Source of the DNA: Lentisphaera profundi
GTDB lineage: Bacteria > Verrucomicrobiota > Lentisphaeria > Lentisphaerales > Lentisphaeraceae
Reading direction: 5' to 3'
Length of the DNA: 64,000 bases
Assembly: GCF_028728065.1 (NCBI RefSeq)
Contig: NZ_CP117811.1
Coordinates: forward strand, 124,001-188,000
The position numbers were made by a program, and so were the translations under genes. Of this stretch, positions 26,970-64,000 are shown one piece after another. The notes below the pieces were generated by a model that had not been told where the DNA came from, did not search any database, and saw only the letters and a program-made list of their open reading frames with translations. The first letter of the stretch is position 1, and the number at the start of each line of letters is the position of its first letter.

Positions 26970-27099
<130 letters not shown>

Positions 27100-28693
27100 G
27101 ATGCACTCCGACAGATCATTCTCAAGTGCTATTAAAAAATAGCTTAAAGTTATAATTTCCAATAAAAAATCCCACTTAATCGCCTATATTGTAGTAGCTT
27201 ACACCGACAATAACAGCAAGTGGGACTTTCAATGTACGATACTCTTTTTCCCGAATATTTCATCGAGGAATTACGGCAAACTATAGGAATTTTATGCGGA
27301 CCATTGAAGATTGCGGGGCAAATCATACTTCGTCCTGAATTTCAAGAGATCAAAAAGGCAATTGAAGATGATCAACTTCAGTTGAGTAAAGATAGAGCCG
27401 CCACTAGAAACCGCGAGTTTAAAAACAGCTCTACCCAAAAACACCCCCCAGCTGAATTGGTGGTGGCGTTGTTCATAGCCCGTCACTTTTATGATAATTG
27501 TTACGGTGAACGAGGCTATAGTATGCTATGTGAGAATAGTTCCTTGCAGCAGTTTATTGGGCGCTTGGGCATAGGAAGCTTCCCTTCACGCAATACGATT
27601 CATGAACAAGTCTCTGCTCTTTCTGAGAAGACCCTTAATCTTTTTCATCAAGCTATTTTGAACTGCGTTAAGGAGTGTGGCCTGGATGATTTTTCAGCAG
27701 TGATTATTGATTCTACAGCCATTAAGGCCGATTCAGCGTGGCCTGTCGATAGTCAATTACTAAAGAACCTTAGTTGTAAAATGATGAAAAATATCAGTGA
27801 CGTTCATGATCAGCTTCCCTGTGTTGAGCGCAGAAAGATCCCTCTCAAACGCCTGCAAAATTACTGTGATTATATGAGTAAACTGGATTTCGAGATCTCT
27901 ATGCTTAAAGGAAAAAAAGGAGCAAGAAAAATGAGGCAAAAGTTTTATACGCAAGAACTTTTACCGAGGTGCCGAAAATTTATTATTCGCCTGGAGAAGA
28001 CTCTTCCTCAAATTAAACAACACTGTGAAAGTGCCAAAGTTCTGATGATTGACGAATGTCTATCTCGCTTCATAGATAAAGTTTTGATGGTTGAACATCG
28101 CTTCAACATGGCTCCTAAGGACTACGATACGAAGACGGCACGGAAAATTTACAGCATGAGTGATAATGATGCAGCATTTATTAAAAAGGGTGGTCGAGAA
28201 ACCGTATTTGGCTACCGACCAAATTTCGCCTTTAGTGCCAATGGTTTTCTGACATCATTCACCCTAGAATCTGGAAATACTAGTGACAGCAAGGCCTTCA
28301 GTAATTGCCTTGATGAAAATAAAAAGATGACGGGCGAGACCGCAATGATGATCAGTGTGGATGACGGATATAGCTCTGCCGCCAATTTAGATGATGCCAT
28401 CGAAAAAGGGGCGACATTAGTCAGTGTTAGTGGCTCAAAGGGAAAGAAGCTCTTAGGAGAAGATATTTATGAGAGTGAAAACTACCAACTTGCGAGAAAT
28501 ATCCGATCAATTTCCGAAGCAGGTATTTCAAAGCTGAAGAACTATCACAACCTTGAGCGATTTACCGTTTGTGGCTTAAAGAGGGTTCGTCAAGAAACTC
28601 TCATAAGCGCCATAGGATTCAACTTGGAAAGGATCTGCCAGTTATTATGTCAAATAGAGATTGAGGTCGCCGCATAGAATGTCGGAGTGCATC
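27100..28693 (+). mobile_element. Complete insertion sequence with 14-bp terminal inverted repeats and 6-bp target duplication
   Basis: The 1594-bp element has perfect ends GATGCACTCCGACA (27100-27113) and its complement at 28680-28693. The flanks are TGGCAA on both sides (27094-27099 and 28694-28699). Two neighbouring uninterrupted copies of the same dispersed repeat (around 28803-28850 and 29018-29065) show TGGCAA only once, followed directly by GCCTCGCAGGG. This gives the empty site and proves the 6-base duplication. The element has one transposase gene. An inverted repeat TCCCACTT (27170-27177) / AAGTGGGA (27218-27225) lies just before the start codon and may limit translation. The intact structure suggests recent insertion. 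Confidence 0.9.
27232..28677 (+). CDS. DDE-type transposase of the insertion sequence
   Basis: A 481-aa protein from the ATG at 27232 (a GTG at 27220 is four codons upstream). Candidate catalytic acidic residues are Asp160 in AVIIDSTAIKADSAW and Asp377/378 in MMISVDDGYSSAANLD, with a later ATLVSVSGSKGKKLLGED strand. The N-terminal part (HPPAELVVALFIARHFYDNC, then GERGYSMLCENSSLQQFIGR) looks like the dimerisation and DNA-binding region of IS1182/IS5-like transposases. The family assignment is not certain. It fills almost the whole IS and is uninterrupted, so the element may be active. Confidence 0.85.
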   Translation: MYDTLFPEYFIEELRQTIGILCGPLKIAGQIILRPEFQEIKKAIEDDQLQLSKDRAATRNREFKNSSTQKHPPAELVVALFIARHFYDNCYGERGYSMLCENSSLQQFIGRLGIGSFPSRNTIHEQVSALSEKTLNLFHQAILNCVKECGLDDFSAVIIDSTAIKADSAWPVDSQLLKNLSCKMMKNISDVHDQLPCVERRKIPLKRLQNYCDYMSKLDFEISMLKGKKGARKMRQKFYTQELLPRCRKFIIRLEKTLPQIKQHCESAKVLMIDECLSRFIDKVLMVEHRFNMAPKDYDTKTARKIYSMSDNDAAFIKKGGRETVFGYRPNFAFSANGFLTSFTLESGNTSDSKAFSNCLDENKKMTGETAMMISVDDGYSSAANLDDAIEKGATLVSVSGSKGKKLLGEDIYESENYQLARNIRSISEAGISKLKNYHNLERFTVCGLKRVRQETLISAIGFNLERICQLLCQIEIEVAA

Positions 28694-29080
<387 letters not shown>

Positions 29081-29211
29081 GGAAAAGCTGTCCCCGACAG
29101 GGTGAAAAGCTGTCCCAGACAGGGTGAAAAGCTGTCCCAGACAGGGTGAAAAGCTGTCCCAGACAGTGGTGAAAAGCTGTCCCAGACAGGGTGAAAAGCT
29201 GTCCCAGACAG
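29081..29211 (+). repeat. 22-bp tandem repeat, six copies, each with a CTGTC-CCA-GACAG palindrome
   Basis: The unit GGTGAAAAGCTG followed by TCCCAGACAG is repeated six times, nearly exactly. The first copy is TCCCCGACAG and the fifth has one extra T, so the period is 22 (one of 23). Each unit contains the small hairpin CTGTC-CCA-GACAG. There are no spacers, so it is not a CRISPR. The rest of the gap up to the esterase gene shows no feature. Confidence 0.85.
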
Positions 29212-39407: not shown

Positions 39408-39660
39408 TAAAAATTATTGGCCCGTACGGTAGTATCTCGAGCGAGGTTTGGGGCGGAGCCCCAGATATTTTTATCGCCTGTGTGGCAGCACCCCTCCGGT
39501 GGCCGAGGGGCCCTACTGAAAAAGGTAGCAGCAGGTATAAAACCCCTTAGGTTCTCTCGCATTAGGGCCAGCCCCGAACCCTGTGAGGGATGCCTCCATC
39601 AACGGGTAATTAAAAACCTTATTGTGGCAGTTTTGCTTAATGCCAAGCAGGAGCTCGGCG
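39408..39660 (+). repeat. Dispersed GC-rich intergenic repeat, family C (copy 3)
   Basis: The stretch has GGCCCGTACGGTAGTATCTC, GGTTTGGGGCGGAGCCCC, CGCCTGTGTGGCAGCACCCC and GGTGGCCGAGGGGCCCTAC. The order differs from the other copies: the TGTGTGGCAGCACC part lies after, not before, the GGCGGAGCCCC part, so the copy is rearranged. No gene is present in 39122-39668. Confidence 0.65.
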
Positions 39661-39668
39661 TTCCCCGC

Positions 39669-56478: not shown

Positions 56479-56546
56479 GTAAGTTTTCCTGTTTTGAGGT
56501 ATCCACAGATTATTCAGATGAACACAGATTGATTTTTTCTGGGTAC

Positions 56547-56617
56547 GCCAAGCACTAGCTTGGCATAAAAAAAGGGCGGGTTGTTTATCTAGAGCTTCGG
56601 CCAAGCTGGTGCTTGGC
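56547..56617. repeat. Inverted REP pair (BIME-like) between two sulfatase genes
   Basis: Forward REP GCCAAGC-ACTA-GCTTGGC (56547-56564, preceded by GGGTAC) and reverse REP GCCAAGC-TGGT-GCTTGGC (56600-56617, followed by GTACCC) face each other. The pair separates the 56628-58223 gene from the 54940-56478 gene and may act in transcript processing or termination. Confidence 0.75.
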
Positions 56618-56627
56618 GTACCCATAC

Positions 56628-59964: not shown

Positions 59965-60059
59965 GAATGAATACCTGAATTTGTTTCTCTAAATTTACAG
60001 TTCTAAATCAAGTAATTGGACCAAAGCTAGAATTTTTCGAACTTATTTCTTCTGGGTAC

Positions 60060-60660
60060 GCCAAGCACCAGCTTGGCAATTGCGGACAAAAAAATCACCT
60101 ATGGGTGCGCCAAGTACCAGCTTGGCAATTGCGGACAAAATTAACTATCGTGAGTGCTTTCCTGAAGATAACAAAATCATCTATGGGTACGCCAAGCACC
60201 AGCTTGGCAAAAGTCCGGCTCCACCAAACCCCAACGTGCCCAAAACATGGGTACGCCAAGCACCAACGTGGCAAAAGTCCGGCTCCATCAAACCCCAACG
60301 TGCCCAAAACATAGGTCCGCCAAGCACCAGCGTGGCAAAAGTCCGGCTCCATCAAACCCCAACGTGCCCAAAACATAGGTACGCCAAGCACCAACGTGGC
60401 AAAAGTCCGGCTCCATCAAACCCCAACGTGCCCAAAACATAGGTCCGCCAAGCACCAGCGTGGCAAAAGTCCGGCTCCATCAAACCCCAACGTGCCCAAA
60501 ACATAGGTCCGCCAAGCACCAGCGTGGCAAAAGTCCGGCTCCATCAAACCCCAACGTGCCCAAAACATAGGTCCGCCAAGCACCAGCGTGGCAAAAGTCC
60601 GGCTCCATCAAACCCCCGCTTACCCAAAACATGGGTACGCCAAGCACCAGCGTGGCAAAA
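60060..60660 (+). repeat. REP palindromes and 64-bp tandem array upstream of the RAYT gene
   Basis: Three REP copies (60060-60077, 60109-60126, 60191-60208; GCCAAGC-ACCA-GCTTGGC with GGGTAC or GGGTGC before) lead into a tandem array. From 60191 the unit start recurs at exactly 64 bases (60191, 60255, 60319, 60383, 60447, 60511, 60575, 60639), so about 7.4 units. In the array the palindrome 3' arm has changed to GCGTGGC or ACGTGGC, and the rest of each unit (GTCCGGCTCCATCAAACCCC and onward) is nearly constant. There are no variable spacers, so it is not a CRISPR. A frame crosses the array, but 64 is not a multiple of 3, so the repeats are not coding. Confidence 0.92.
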
Positions 60661-60763
60661 GTCCGATATGACTATCTATCTAATTCCCACTTTATAATCC
60701 ATAAAAATCTTGCATGGCTTAATCTGAAATTTTATCTTATGCAACTATGAATGGAGATTTAGT

Positions 60764-61360
60764 ATGGAAATGAACTCAGTAAATTGGCATAGTCGTGGTT
60801 ATTTACCGCACTATGATTCTATGGAGCTTTATCAATCAATTACCTTTCGATTGGCAGATAGTTTACCTCAAAGAATACTAAAAAACTTAGAAGAAGATCT
60901 GAAGATTTTAGGAGTGGATAAACTCGATTATCAGCGTCGAAATTTAATTGATAAATATTTAGATATGGGCTGTGGTTGTTGTGCACTGAAGAATCAGCAG
61001 ATGGCAAAAGTAATGAAAGAGTCCTTAATAAGATTTGATAATGAACGTTATCAATTGATTGCCTGGTGCATTATGCCCAATCATGTTCATGCCTTACTAA
61101 AACCGAAAATTGGCCTCGCCAAAATCATTCAATCTTGGCGGTCATATACTGGAAGGTGGGCTTTTCGAAATAATGCTAAATACGAATTGGGGATCACTGC
61201 AGATTCAAAAAGATTTTGGATGCGTGATTATTGGGATCGCTATATTCGTAGTGAAAAGCATTTTTATAGTGTGCTTGACTATATTCATGAAAACCCAGTG
61301 AAAGCGGGCTTGTGTAAAGCCCCTGAAAATTGGAAGTGGTCAAGTGCTTTTGAGGAATGA
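60764..61360 (+). CDS. REP-associated tyrosine transposase (RAYT, Y1 HUH family)
   Basis: A 198-aa protein with the RAYT N-terminal signature RGYLPHYDSMELYQSITFRL, ADSLP at about 31-35, the HUH motif in CIMPNHVHALLKP (His107, His109) and the C-terminal DYWDRYIRSEKHFYSVLDYI followed by HENPVKAGLCKAPENWKWSS. The catalytic tyrosine is probably in the last block. RAYTs process REP single strands. The gene is flanked by its own REP palindromes: left in forward orientation plus the 64-bp array, right in reverse orientation (61370-61526). GGAGATTTAGT precedes the ATG. Confidence 0.92.
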   Translation: MEMNSVNWHSRGYLPHYDSMELYQSITFRLADSLPQRILKNLEEDLKILGVDKLDYQRRNLIDKYLDMGCGCCALKNQQMAKVMKESLIRFDNERYQLIAWCIMPNHVHALLKPKIGLAKIIQSWRSYTGRWAFRNNAKYELGITADSKRFWMRDYWDRYIRSEKHFYSVLDYIHENPVKAGLCKAPENWKWSSAFEE

Positions 61361-61369
61361 AGTGGATAT

Positions 61370-61526
61370 GCCAAGCAGGTACTTGGCGTACGTGCGCCTG
61401 AGAGCGCAGAGGATGAATTGAGTATCGTGTATGTAAAAGCCAAGCTGGTGCTTGGCGTACCCAGATTCATTTTACCAAGCTGGTGCTTGGCGTACCCAGA
61501 TTCATTTTACCAAGCTGGTGCTTGGC
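61370..61526 (+). repeat. REP copies downstream of the RAYT gene (mostly inverted)
   Basis: A variant GCCAAGC-AGGT-ACTTGGC (61370-61387) is followed by CGTACGTGCGCCTGAGAGCG-type bases (shared with the group II intron 5' end). Three reverse REPs follow at 61439-61456, 61475-61491 and 61510-61526, with period about 35 (GTACCCAGATTCATTTTACC between). Together with 60060-60660 they bracket the transposase. Confidence 0.88.
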
Positions 61527-61534
61527 GGACCTAG

Positions 61535-63082: not shown

Positions 63083-63225
63083 AAATAGTTTTTCCTAAAG
63101 TAAAATTAAGATGAATTCTTATTTATCTATTACAGAACTAAAGGGCCTGATTAGACTAGAAACTAATCTTTTATGGTTTAAAAACAGGAAGTGGGGCGCG
63201 GTCGTAGGAGTGATATTTTGGGTAC

Positions 63226-63390
63226 GCCAAGCACTAGCTTGGCCGAAGTGTCGAAAAATTTAATACTATCATTATCTAATGCCGAGTAAGCCCTTGGCGG
63301 GAGTGATATAGATACTCGGGGTCGGCCCCGAAGCCCGTGAGGTTTGCCACCCTCAATGGTCGGTAAAAAAAAGCCAAGCTGGTGCTTGGC
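63226..63390. repeat. REP copies before the group II intron
   Basis: A forward REP GCCAAGC-ACTA-GCTTGGC lies at 63226-63243 (preceded by GGGTAC), and a reverse REP GCCAAGC-TGGT-GCTTGGC at 63373-63390, followed by GTAC and directly by the intron start. The sequence between has a degenerate family C-like stretch (GGGGTCGGCCCCGAAGCCC) and no gene. Confidence 0.8.
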
Positions 63391-63394
63391 GTAC

Positions 63395-64000
63395 GTGCGC
63401 CTGAGAGCGCACACAATCAGTGAGGTGAAAGTCCTCATCAACAAAGGCTGATTATGTTGTAGTCGAACCAAACTGCGTTGTCGTGAGGCGGGGTGGGGAG
63501 CAAGGTAAGGCGAAACAGCAGTCCGTAGGATGACGAACTCGATTCGGCTTTATAGTACTGGCGAGCCTGCGTACGCTTGGCGAAGCTTGGAACAGAATGA
63601 AAAAAAAAAAAGTAGTTCTGAAAATCCTCTATGCTGAATATCAGCGAGTAGCAAAGCAGTAGAGGAAGTCTATAGGGTGGTTGGAGACGGAATGCCGTGA
63701 AGGTTGTGTGACGTTAATCAGGGAGATCTGCATGTGCAGTGCAATAAGGCATGCAGAAGTCAGAGCTCTCATAGTAGCGTAGAAGGCGGTGAAAGCCGTT
63801 AGAGCGAAGGGGAGTAGGAAGATGAAACTGAAAAGGAAAGACTGAAGGAATGAAACAACTGTCAGAGACGACTAAACATTTATGGGAGCAGTTAGGGCGT
63901 GCCGAAGAAATTCGTGCGTGGGCCTCGACTTCAGTCTGGACGGATCAGATGCTGGGAACTCTTGAAACAAGAGTTGAAGGTAGAAAATGGTATAGCTTAA
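63395..64000 (+). ncRNA. Group II intron, 5' part (cut by the window end)
   Basis: The 5' boundary candidate is GTGCGCC at 63395 (consensus GUGYG). Conserved intron segments follow: GAGGTGAAAGTCCTC, GCAGTCCGTAGGATGACGAA, ACTGGCGAGCCTGCG, GGCGGTGAAAGCC and GAGCGAAGGGGAGTAGGAAG. The reverse transcriptase ORF begins at 63850. The intron starts 4 bases after a REP hairpin. Domains V and VI lie outside the window. A 27-base identical copy of this boundary (61382-61408) exists without an intron. Confidence 0.85.
63850..64000 (+). CDS. ltrA: Group II intron reverse transcriptase/maturase, N-terminus only
   Basis: The frame from the ATG at 63850 is open to the window end (50 codons). It reads MKQLSETTKHLWEQLGRAEE and then VWTDQMLGTLETRVEGRKWY, which matches the N-terminal region of group II intron-encoded proteins (W-T-x-x-M-L-x-x-L-E...G-x-K-W-Y/H). 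AAGGA lies before the ATG. The reverse transcriptase domain itself is outside the window. Confidence 0.85.
   Translation, partial: MKQLSETTKHLWEQLGRAEEIRAWASTSVWTDQMLGTLETRVEGRKWYSL

Follow-up and report, generated by a model that had tools for sequence, protein, structure and literature searches.

The window analysed here, a stretch of 64,000 nucleotides of the Lentisphaera profundi genome, carries near its right end a gene for a REP-associated tyrosine transposase (RAYT, or TnpAREP) of 198 residues (60764..61360, forward strand). The product matches the NCBIfam family NF047646 (REP_Tyr_transpos) with 88.2 bits against a cut-off of 80 and the Y1_Tnp profile with 35.9 bits, and it retains the invariant columns. 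The sole weighty match in a sequence search of the PDB was E. coli TnpAREP (4ER8, 1.2e-7). We modeled the protein with AlphaFold2 using 35 related sequences (mean pLDDT 87.8), and a structure search with this model returned 4ER8 at rank 1 (E 7e-8), followed by the ISDra2 and IS608 transposases. The HUH motif is H107-V-H109 (NHVH), and the Y motif, YIHENP, bears the catalytic Y173. A preliminary description made from the letters of the window had called the gene a RAYT. The score above the NF047646 cut-off, the two motifs, and the 4ER8 fold bear out this call: the product is a REP-associated tyrosine transposase with a Y1 HUH domain and Y---NP.

Besides being the best structural match, E. coli TnpAREP (group 2, subclass 2.2) shares with the L. 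profundi protein the HUH motif and single tyrosine with Y---NP, the guide-loop tryptophan and arginine, and the REPs bracketing the gene. In the alignment, the guide-contact residues W94, Q95, E100, H101, and R104 of 4ER8 correspond to W152, M153, D158, R159, and R162 of the guide loop (W152-M153...D158-R159..R162). The two proteins differ in the replacement of Q95 by methionine, found at this position in 68 of the 72 RAYTs of the clade, in two additional helices that the model places between its first strand and the core helix, and in the absence of the C-terminal tail with which the E. coli enzyme touches the last two guide bases.

The catalytic fold is also that of the IS200/IS605 family, with IS608 and ISDra2 as the next structural matches, so that one could think of a classical insertion sequence with coincidentally repeated ends. 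This explanation is extremely improbable, since the IS200 transposase model reached 24.6 bits, below its cut-off of 55, whereas the RAYT model scored above its own, and since dozens of REPs occur without the gene. Neither the Y---Q motif nor the multiple near-identical copies of IS200/IS605 elements were found: the Y motif ends in NP, not Q, and the best paralogue in the genome, at C2:575859, is 74% identical. The gene is flanked by REPs with 7-bp stems and not by the long TIRs with GGGGWSAS that replace REPs in the RAYT-like genes known as TIRYTs. The search for plasmid relatives yielded none above 37%. Taken together, the paralogue, synteny (see below), and plasmid checks describe a chromosomal, low-copy gene that is inherited vertically; the RAYT gene is a single-copy, domesticated transposase.

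The REPs around the gene belong to a family that we term REP-A, GCCAAGC-ACC[AT]-GCTTGGC, which also flanks the paralogue at C2:575859. Both of these 74%-identical RAYTs are paired with REP-A, whose loops end in A or T. To the left of the gene, forward copies lie at 60054..60077 (foot CTGGGTAC) and 60103..60126 (foot ATGGGTGC), the foot being the flank on the 5' side of the stem; to the right, a reverse copy at 61370..61391 has its foot cut by the relic of a group II intron 5' end. The REPs thereby bracket the gene, forward on the left and reverse on the right, as first reported, and their feet point outward. Further REP-A copies are found at 63220..63243 (forward), at 63373..63394 (reverse, its foot holding a full group II intron), at 28873..28896 (forward, in a mosaic with REP-B), and in an inverted pair (REPIN) with its left half at 56541..56564 (forward) and its right half at 56600..56623 (reverse), where the sister species keeps a REP at the syntenic site. 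The sites listed in the preliminary description (28879, 56547, 56600, 63226, and 63373) each match GCCAAGC-N4-GCTTGGC exactly; a variant, GGGAAC-GCCGAGCTCCTGCTTGGC, at 39642..39665 (reverse) had been missed. The window contains 20 palindrome copies at ≤2 mismatches, whereas shuffles average 0.36 and never exceed 3. Genome-wide there are 69 palindrome places at ≤1 mismatch, and none for the reversed control pattern. The proposed genome-wide count of REPs with inspection of their 5' flanks gave 81 oriented, foot-containing REP-A copies against 0 in the control, with a conserved foot.

REP-A is one of at least three RAYT/REP families in this genome, which differ in their hairpins and agree in the type of foot. 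The second, REP-B (GC[AG]GGCGTCTCGCC[CT]GC with its near variants; 58 perfect matches to the pattern genome-wide, control 0), flanks a RAYT fragment at C1:1847808 and lies inside a paralogue at C1:1563901, while a third hairpin, CCGCATTCCAATGCGG, flanks a RAYT at C2:503632. Within the window, REP-B occurs at 28970..28992 (GGGAGC-GCAGGCATCCTGCCTGC) and 27035..27057, both forward. REP-A, REP-B, and the third hairpin are thus paired with different RAYTs of the genome, as expected if each RAYT has its own REP family. Over 72 loci, the distance between RAYTs correlates with the distance between REP cores (Mantel r 0.45, p 0.0002), a correlation that fits co-evolution and shared ancestry alike.

REP-B is likewise seen in head-to-tail arrays with periods of 32, 53, and 54, interleaved with REP-A; its array regions are G000:C1:2106-2288, 1848463-1848647, 1888933-1889401, and 2681159-2681287. 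The REP/repeat mosaic of the window also contains an apparent insertion sequence at 27090-28695, with a transposase-like open frame, inverted ends ATGCACTCCGACA...TGTCGGAGTGCAT, and CTGGCAAG on both flanks. Beside the mosaic, a 22-bp palindromic repeat (GAAAAGCTGTCCCAGACAGGGT) stands in tandem in about 6 copies (29082-29211); none was found beside the genome's other genes for Y1 transposases. Several RAYT paralogues carry REP hairpins in their coding sequence (G000:C1:1563901-1564545, G117:C15, G117:C38, G115:C82, and G116:C118), as likewise reported for subclass 2.4. In many relatives, L030, L037, L045, L078, and L084 among them, the open frame runs through the upstream REPs, giving N-termini like MNPGNAKPQLG...KAELGLG, which are either REP-encoded peptides or the product of wrong start sites.

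The distribution of REPs follows that of the RAYTs. The strict REP pattern, which misses diverged REPs and thereby weakens the genome counts, was found in ten of 115 phylum genomes, all with an NF047646 match (71/115 overall; Fisher p 0.006), which exceeds the cut-off in eight of them (p 0.0007). The L. profundi genome has 81 REPs and two close RAYTs. The sister species (G117) has 104 REPs and RAYT relatives of 68, 54, and 49% identity, the 54% one with an internal stop; G116 has 20 REPs and a relative of 53%; G118 has 5 REPs and a single, more distant RAYT match over residues 55-197 only; G115 has 0 REPs and a relative of 45%. In G086, of the same family, a loose REP pattern is as frequent reversed as forward, so that it gives no meaningful count. 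The contrary expectation, that REPs are no commoner with the RAYT than without it, is contradicted by these numbers, with 104 REPs in the sister species, whose close RAYTs are intact, against 5 in G118. That the RAYT sits within its own REP system, as originally proposed, is thus upheld by the family match, the structure, the abundance and flanking position of the REPs, the pairing of families, and a REP number that tracks the RAYTs.

The RAYT region is syntenic, in inverted orientation, with that of the sister species, where neighbour proteins are mostly 75-88% identical and a RAYT orthologue of 68% identity lies between the same sulfatases. In G118, the best match of the RAYT-neighbouring sulfatase is only 42%. 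The two intergenic sites that hold a REPIN and a two-unit array in L. profundi are occupied in the sister species by a REP and a single decayed REP, respectively; in the array, each unit is surrounded by a direct repeat of 10 bp. The aligned syntenic intergenic regions of the sister species contained decayed REPs and no clean empty REP site. Synteny and the persistence of REPs mark the system as an old one in the genus, with slow turnover.

Next to the hairpin, the REPs carry a strongly conserved foot. In 74 oriented copies with full flanks, it reads C-[C/A]-T-G-G-G-[T/A]-N-C, then the stem, with GGG conserved at 81-96% per base, T at position -7 at 91%, and C at -1 at 96%; position -3 admits T or A, and -2 almost any base. 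We extended the comparison to 80 RAYT relatives from Verrucomicrobia, Lentisphaeria, Chlorobi, Methylobacter, Pseudomonas and allies, Microbulbifer, Planctomycetes, and others, which were retrieved with peptides of the window RAYT, so that the search sets the boundary of the clade. Seven-bp hairpins number 267 within 1 kb of these genes, and 219 of them have GGG at -6..-4 on one strand, against a background of 1.6% per strand, and the consensus foot is CYGGGARC. The hairpin loop is N-C-C-N, with CC at positions 2-3 in 97-99%. The conserved foot is CYGGG[AT]NC before the 7-bp stem, and GTAC is the local form of its last four bases.

The conserved foot bears on the view that the REPs are mainly terminators or mRNA 3' stabilisers of sulfatase genes, kept under selection with the RAYT as an incidental neighbour. 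The REPs are extragenic hairpins, the sister species keeps one in a syntenic position, and two window copies have T-rich tails matching the terminator pattern. However, terminator-like sites are not enriched over shuffles (6 vs 4.2), the 3' flank is little conserved whereas the 5' foot is strongly so, and REP families track RAYT families. We consider this view quite unlikely as the main explanation, while termination or stabilisation could be a secondary role of the REPs.

The preliminary description had assigned the GTAC next to the stem the part played by the GTAG guide of enterobacterial REPs. The location remains plausible for a guide, but the four letters are not conserved: GTAC is present in 12 of the 20 window copies, the others having GTCC, GAGC, GAAC, or GTGC, its T is replaced by A in one third of copies, its A is nearly free, and the foot as a whole is CYGGG[AT]NC. 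GTAC as a fixed tag is therefore rejected. The foot consensus of the 74 own copies and of the relatives is not the GT[AG]G of the GTAG REP superfamily (Di Nocera et al. 2013), GTAG/GTGG being the tag used in published REP surveys (PMC3733652, PMC6006769). In a group 3 REP, mutation of the guide to GTAC redirects cutting to GA and GT, the cleavage dinucleotide being chosen by guide positions 2 and 4, or 3 and 4 (PMC8266576). The conservation of G-W-N-C, in which positions 1, 2, and 4 are kept and 3 is free, fits the published mode of positions 2 and 4. For the CYGG half of the foot, the guide model offers no account, which counts against our best explanation. The guide-loop methionine was considered as the cause of the new foot and discarded, as the RAYT of L095 combines glutamine with a GGG foot. 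More distant RAYTs of the phylum (L136 and L146, from G050 and G032) have flanking hairpins GCAGGCG-TCC-CGCCTGC with a different, GTAC-containing foot, GTACC.

As judged from sequence comparison, the foot class lies outside the GTAG and CGTC schemes, and it may have been noticed earlier. A literature search by the REP letters returned no relevant paper among the matches listed; the RAYT groups are reportedly the subject of a 2017 study by Bertels and coworkers. The claim of the preliminary description that RAYT/REP pairs are little described in this phylum holds for Lentisphaera, for which none appeared in the literature searched, but not for Verrucomicrobia and Planctomycetes, whose REPs are known. 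E. coli REPs have GTAG adjoining the stem and bulged long stems, unlike the CYGGGWNC and perfect 7-bp stems found here. The group 3 TnpAREPs (Stenotrophomonas, Marinomonas, and Pseudomonas; subclass 2.5) are similar in their short perfect palindromes, important loop bases, and guide-loop aspartate and arginine, and in lacking the E. coli C-terminal tail (PMC8266576), and the P. putida REP TGTGGGAGCGGGC.. resembles the foot described here. Group 3 REPs, however, have a GT[AG]G foot, in contrast to the CYGG found here with its 4-nt spacer before the stem, and the 45-60% identical relatives of the L. profundi RAYT make a cross-phylum clade. A likeness of motifs only, NH[LIV]H and YIH[QN]NP, links the protein to the atypical-REP subclass 2.6 of Quentin et al. 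2018, which, like class 3, has no GT[AG]G feet but keeps WQ in place of WM and is mostly from Bacteroidetes. Class 3 of the same scheme differs by Y---Q and a CnGA foot. We regard the locus as an ordinary REP/RAYT system of an under-described lineage, set off by its foot class, its head-to-tail clustering, and a putatively REP-homing intron.

Between the left REPs and the gene lies a head-to-tail array of seven 64-bp units and a terminal REP (60185..60656, forward), with unit starts at 60185+64n and neighbours 94-100% identical. The array noticed in the preliminary description is real: Tandem Repeats Finder gave 60186-60665, period 64, 7.5 copies, and 96% match with no indels. Its degraded palindrome arm was likewise confirmed: it is the right arm, in which GCTTGGC has become GCGTGGC or ACGTGGC in all units but the first. 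Most hairpins of the array are weakened by 1-2 stem mismatches, and predicted DNA folding gave -5.8 and -2.8 kcal/mol for array hairpins compared with -8.4 kcal/mol for the canonical one. To the right of the gene, a 35-bp head-to-tail array of three REP-A (61439..61532, reverse), with feet away from the gene, had gone unnoticed; as a direct repeat it spans 61440-61531. Across the genome, 37 of 39 REP-A neighbours within 200 bp are head-to-tail and 2 are inverted, so that the inverted REP pair as a mobile unit (REPIN) does not describe them; 16 of 18 clusters are head-to-tail. Among the relatives, 44 of 79 neighbour pairs are inverted with feet outward. Clusters have private linkers and periods of 35, 48, 51, 57, 59, 64, 67, 74, about 92 bp, and longer, and some mix REP-A and REP-B. 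Readable array boundaries coincide with short direct repeats (TTCAA at C2:575664, ATTTATAGAG at C1:191010).

These arrays look like local tandem duplications. The amplification of damaged units, the private linkers, and the short direct repeats at the edges point to slippage or unequal exchange. Alternatively, the RAYT itself might build the arrays by cutting neighbouring REP feet, freeing single-stranded circles of REP and flank, and re-inserting them beside a REP. The dominance of head-to-tail order in pairs and clusters, the presence of arrays at both close RAYT loci and elsewhere, and the CT next to GGG that starts most units would agree with such a process, which we nevertheless hold to be unlikely: unit ends show no fixed dinucleotide, their readable boundaries being short direct repeats, the window array consists mainly of damaged stems and feet, predicted by homology to be poor substrates, and in relatives that share the foot, inverted pairs predominate. 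The earlier suggestion that the array reflects amplification of REP units thus stands in the sense of local tandem duplication, of which the genome has many examples, but nothing shows the RAYT to be the maker.

The REP feet are also the site of a group II intron. A copy of 1882 nt (RF00029, 54.7 bits) begins at 63395 on the forward strand, runs to the window end at 64000, and continues to contig position 189276 (C1:187395-189276); it has an RT with YADD. An Rfam scan of the window gave no match at the gathering threshold, the Rfam-matched end of the intron lying outside the window. The intron begins inside the foot (hairpin-GTAC^intron^CCAG), and a relic of its first 16 nt lies in the foot of the REP next to the RAYT gene (GTAC^; 61392..61407, forward). 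Both starts had escaped the first reading. Its 5' end also occurs as a relic at C1:2086014 and is found in the genomes G117 and G118. Among 13 copies with read 5' flanks, from three genomes of the genus, 12 have the intron starting at the same foot base, after hairpin and G-N-[T/A]-C, and beside several REP families; the exception, L209, lacks the hairpin and four-base foot. The 3' side is CC or CT in all but one, and CCAG in most. Two of nine group II introns of P. putida lie in REPs (Tobes and Pareja 2006, PMC1525189), a likeness in that group II introns occupy REPs, whereas here 12 of 13 copies share one exact foot base beside several REP families.

Our preferred reading, to which we assign a probability of about 0.75, is a REPtron, in which cognate REPs accompany a Y1 HUH RAYT that is kept at low copy and passed on vertically; single-strand recognition, cleavage, the role of the guide, and the duplication mechanism are inferred. 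By homology to E. coli TnpAREP, the RAYT would recognise the REP only as single-stranded DNA and on one strand, through three features: the 7-bp stem, the C-rich loop, which is NCCN in the relatives and for the most part ACC in this genome, and the 5' foot CYGGG[AT]NC. The foot would occupy the place of GTAG in enterobacterial REPs, with CYGG as an additional recognition element. Y173 would cut the single strand near the hairpin, at GA for GTAC and at GT for GANC as predicted, and the enzyme may spread or rejoin REPs at a low rate, probably during replication. Rather than by transposition, the arrays would arise when direct REPs, or short repeats flanking them, undergo slippage or unequal exchange. 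More tentatively, and a little short of an even chance in our estimate, CYGGGWNC could form a third class of REP tag in addition to GTAG and CGTC, served by a separate RAYT clade that spans phyla, its G-W-N-C guide directing cuts at GA or GT and not CT. The same foot and hairpin would then be a general address for another, unrelated mobile element, the group II intron, homing to several REP families by hairpin and GNWC^CCAG.

Automatic searches for REPs near RAYTs require GT[AG]G, and a class with another foot would escape them in whole phyla and groups, such as Lentisphaeria, Verrucomicrobia, Chlorobi, Methylococcaceae, and others. That the guide bases choose the RAYT cleavage site was shown, in the literature searched, only via mutation of GTAG, and a natural G-W-N-C guide would put it to a direct test. 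The head-to-tail bias and the intron in the foot illustrate how REPs diversify and by what else they are exploited.
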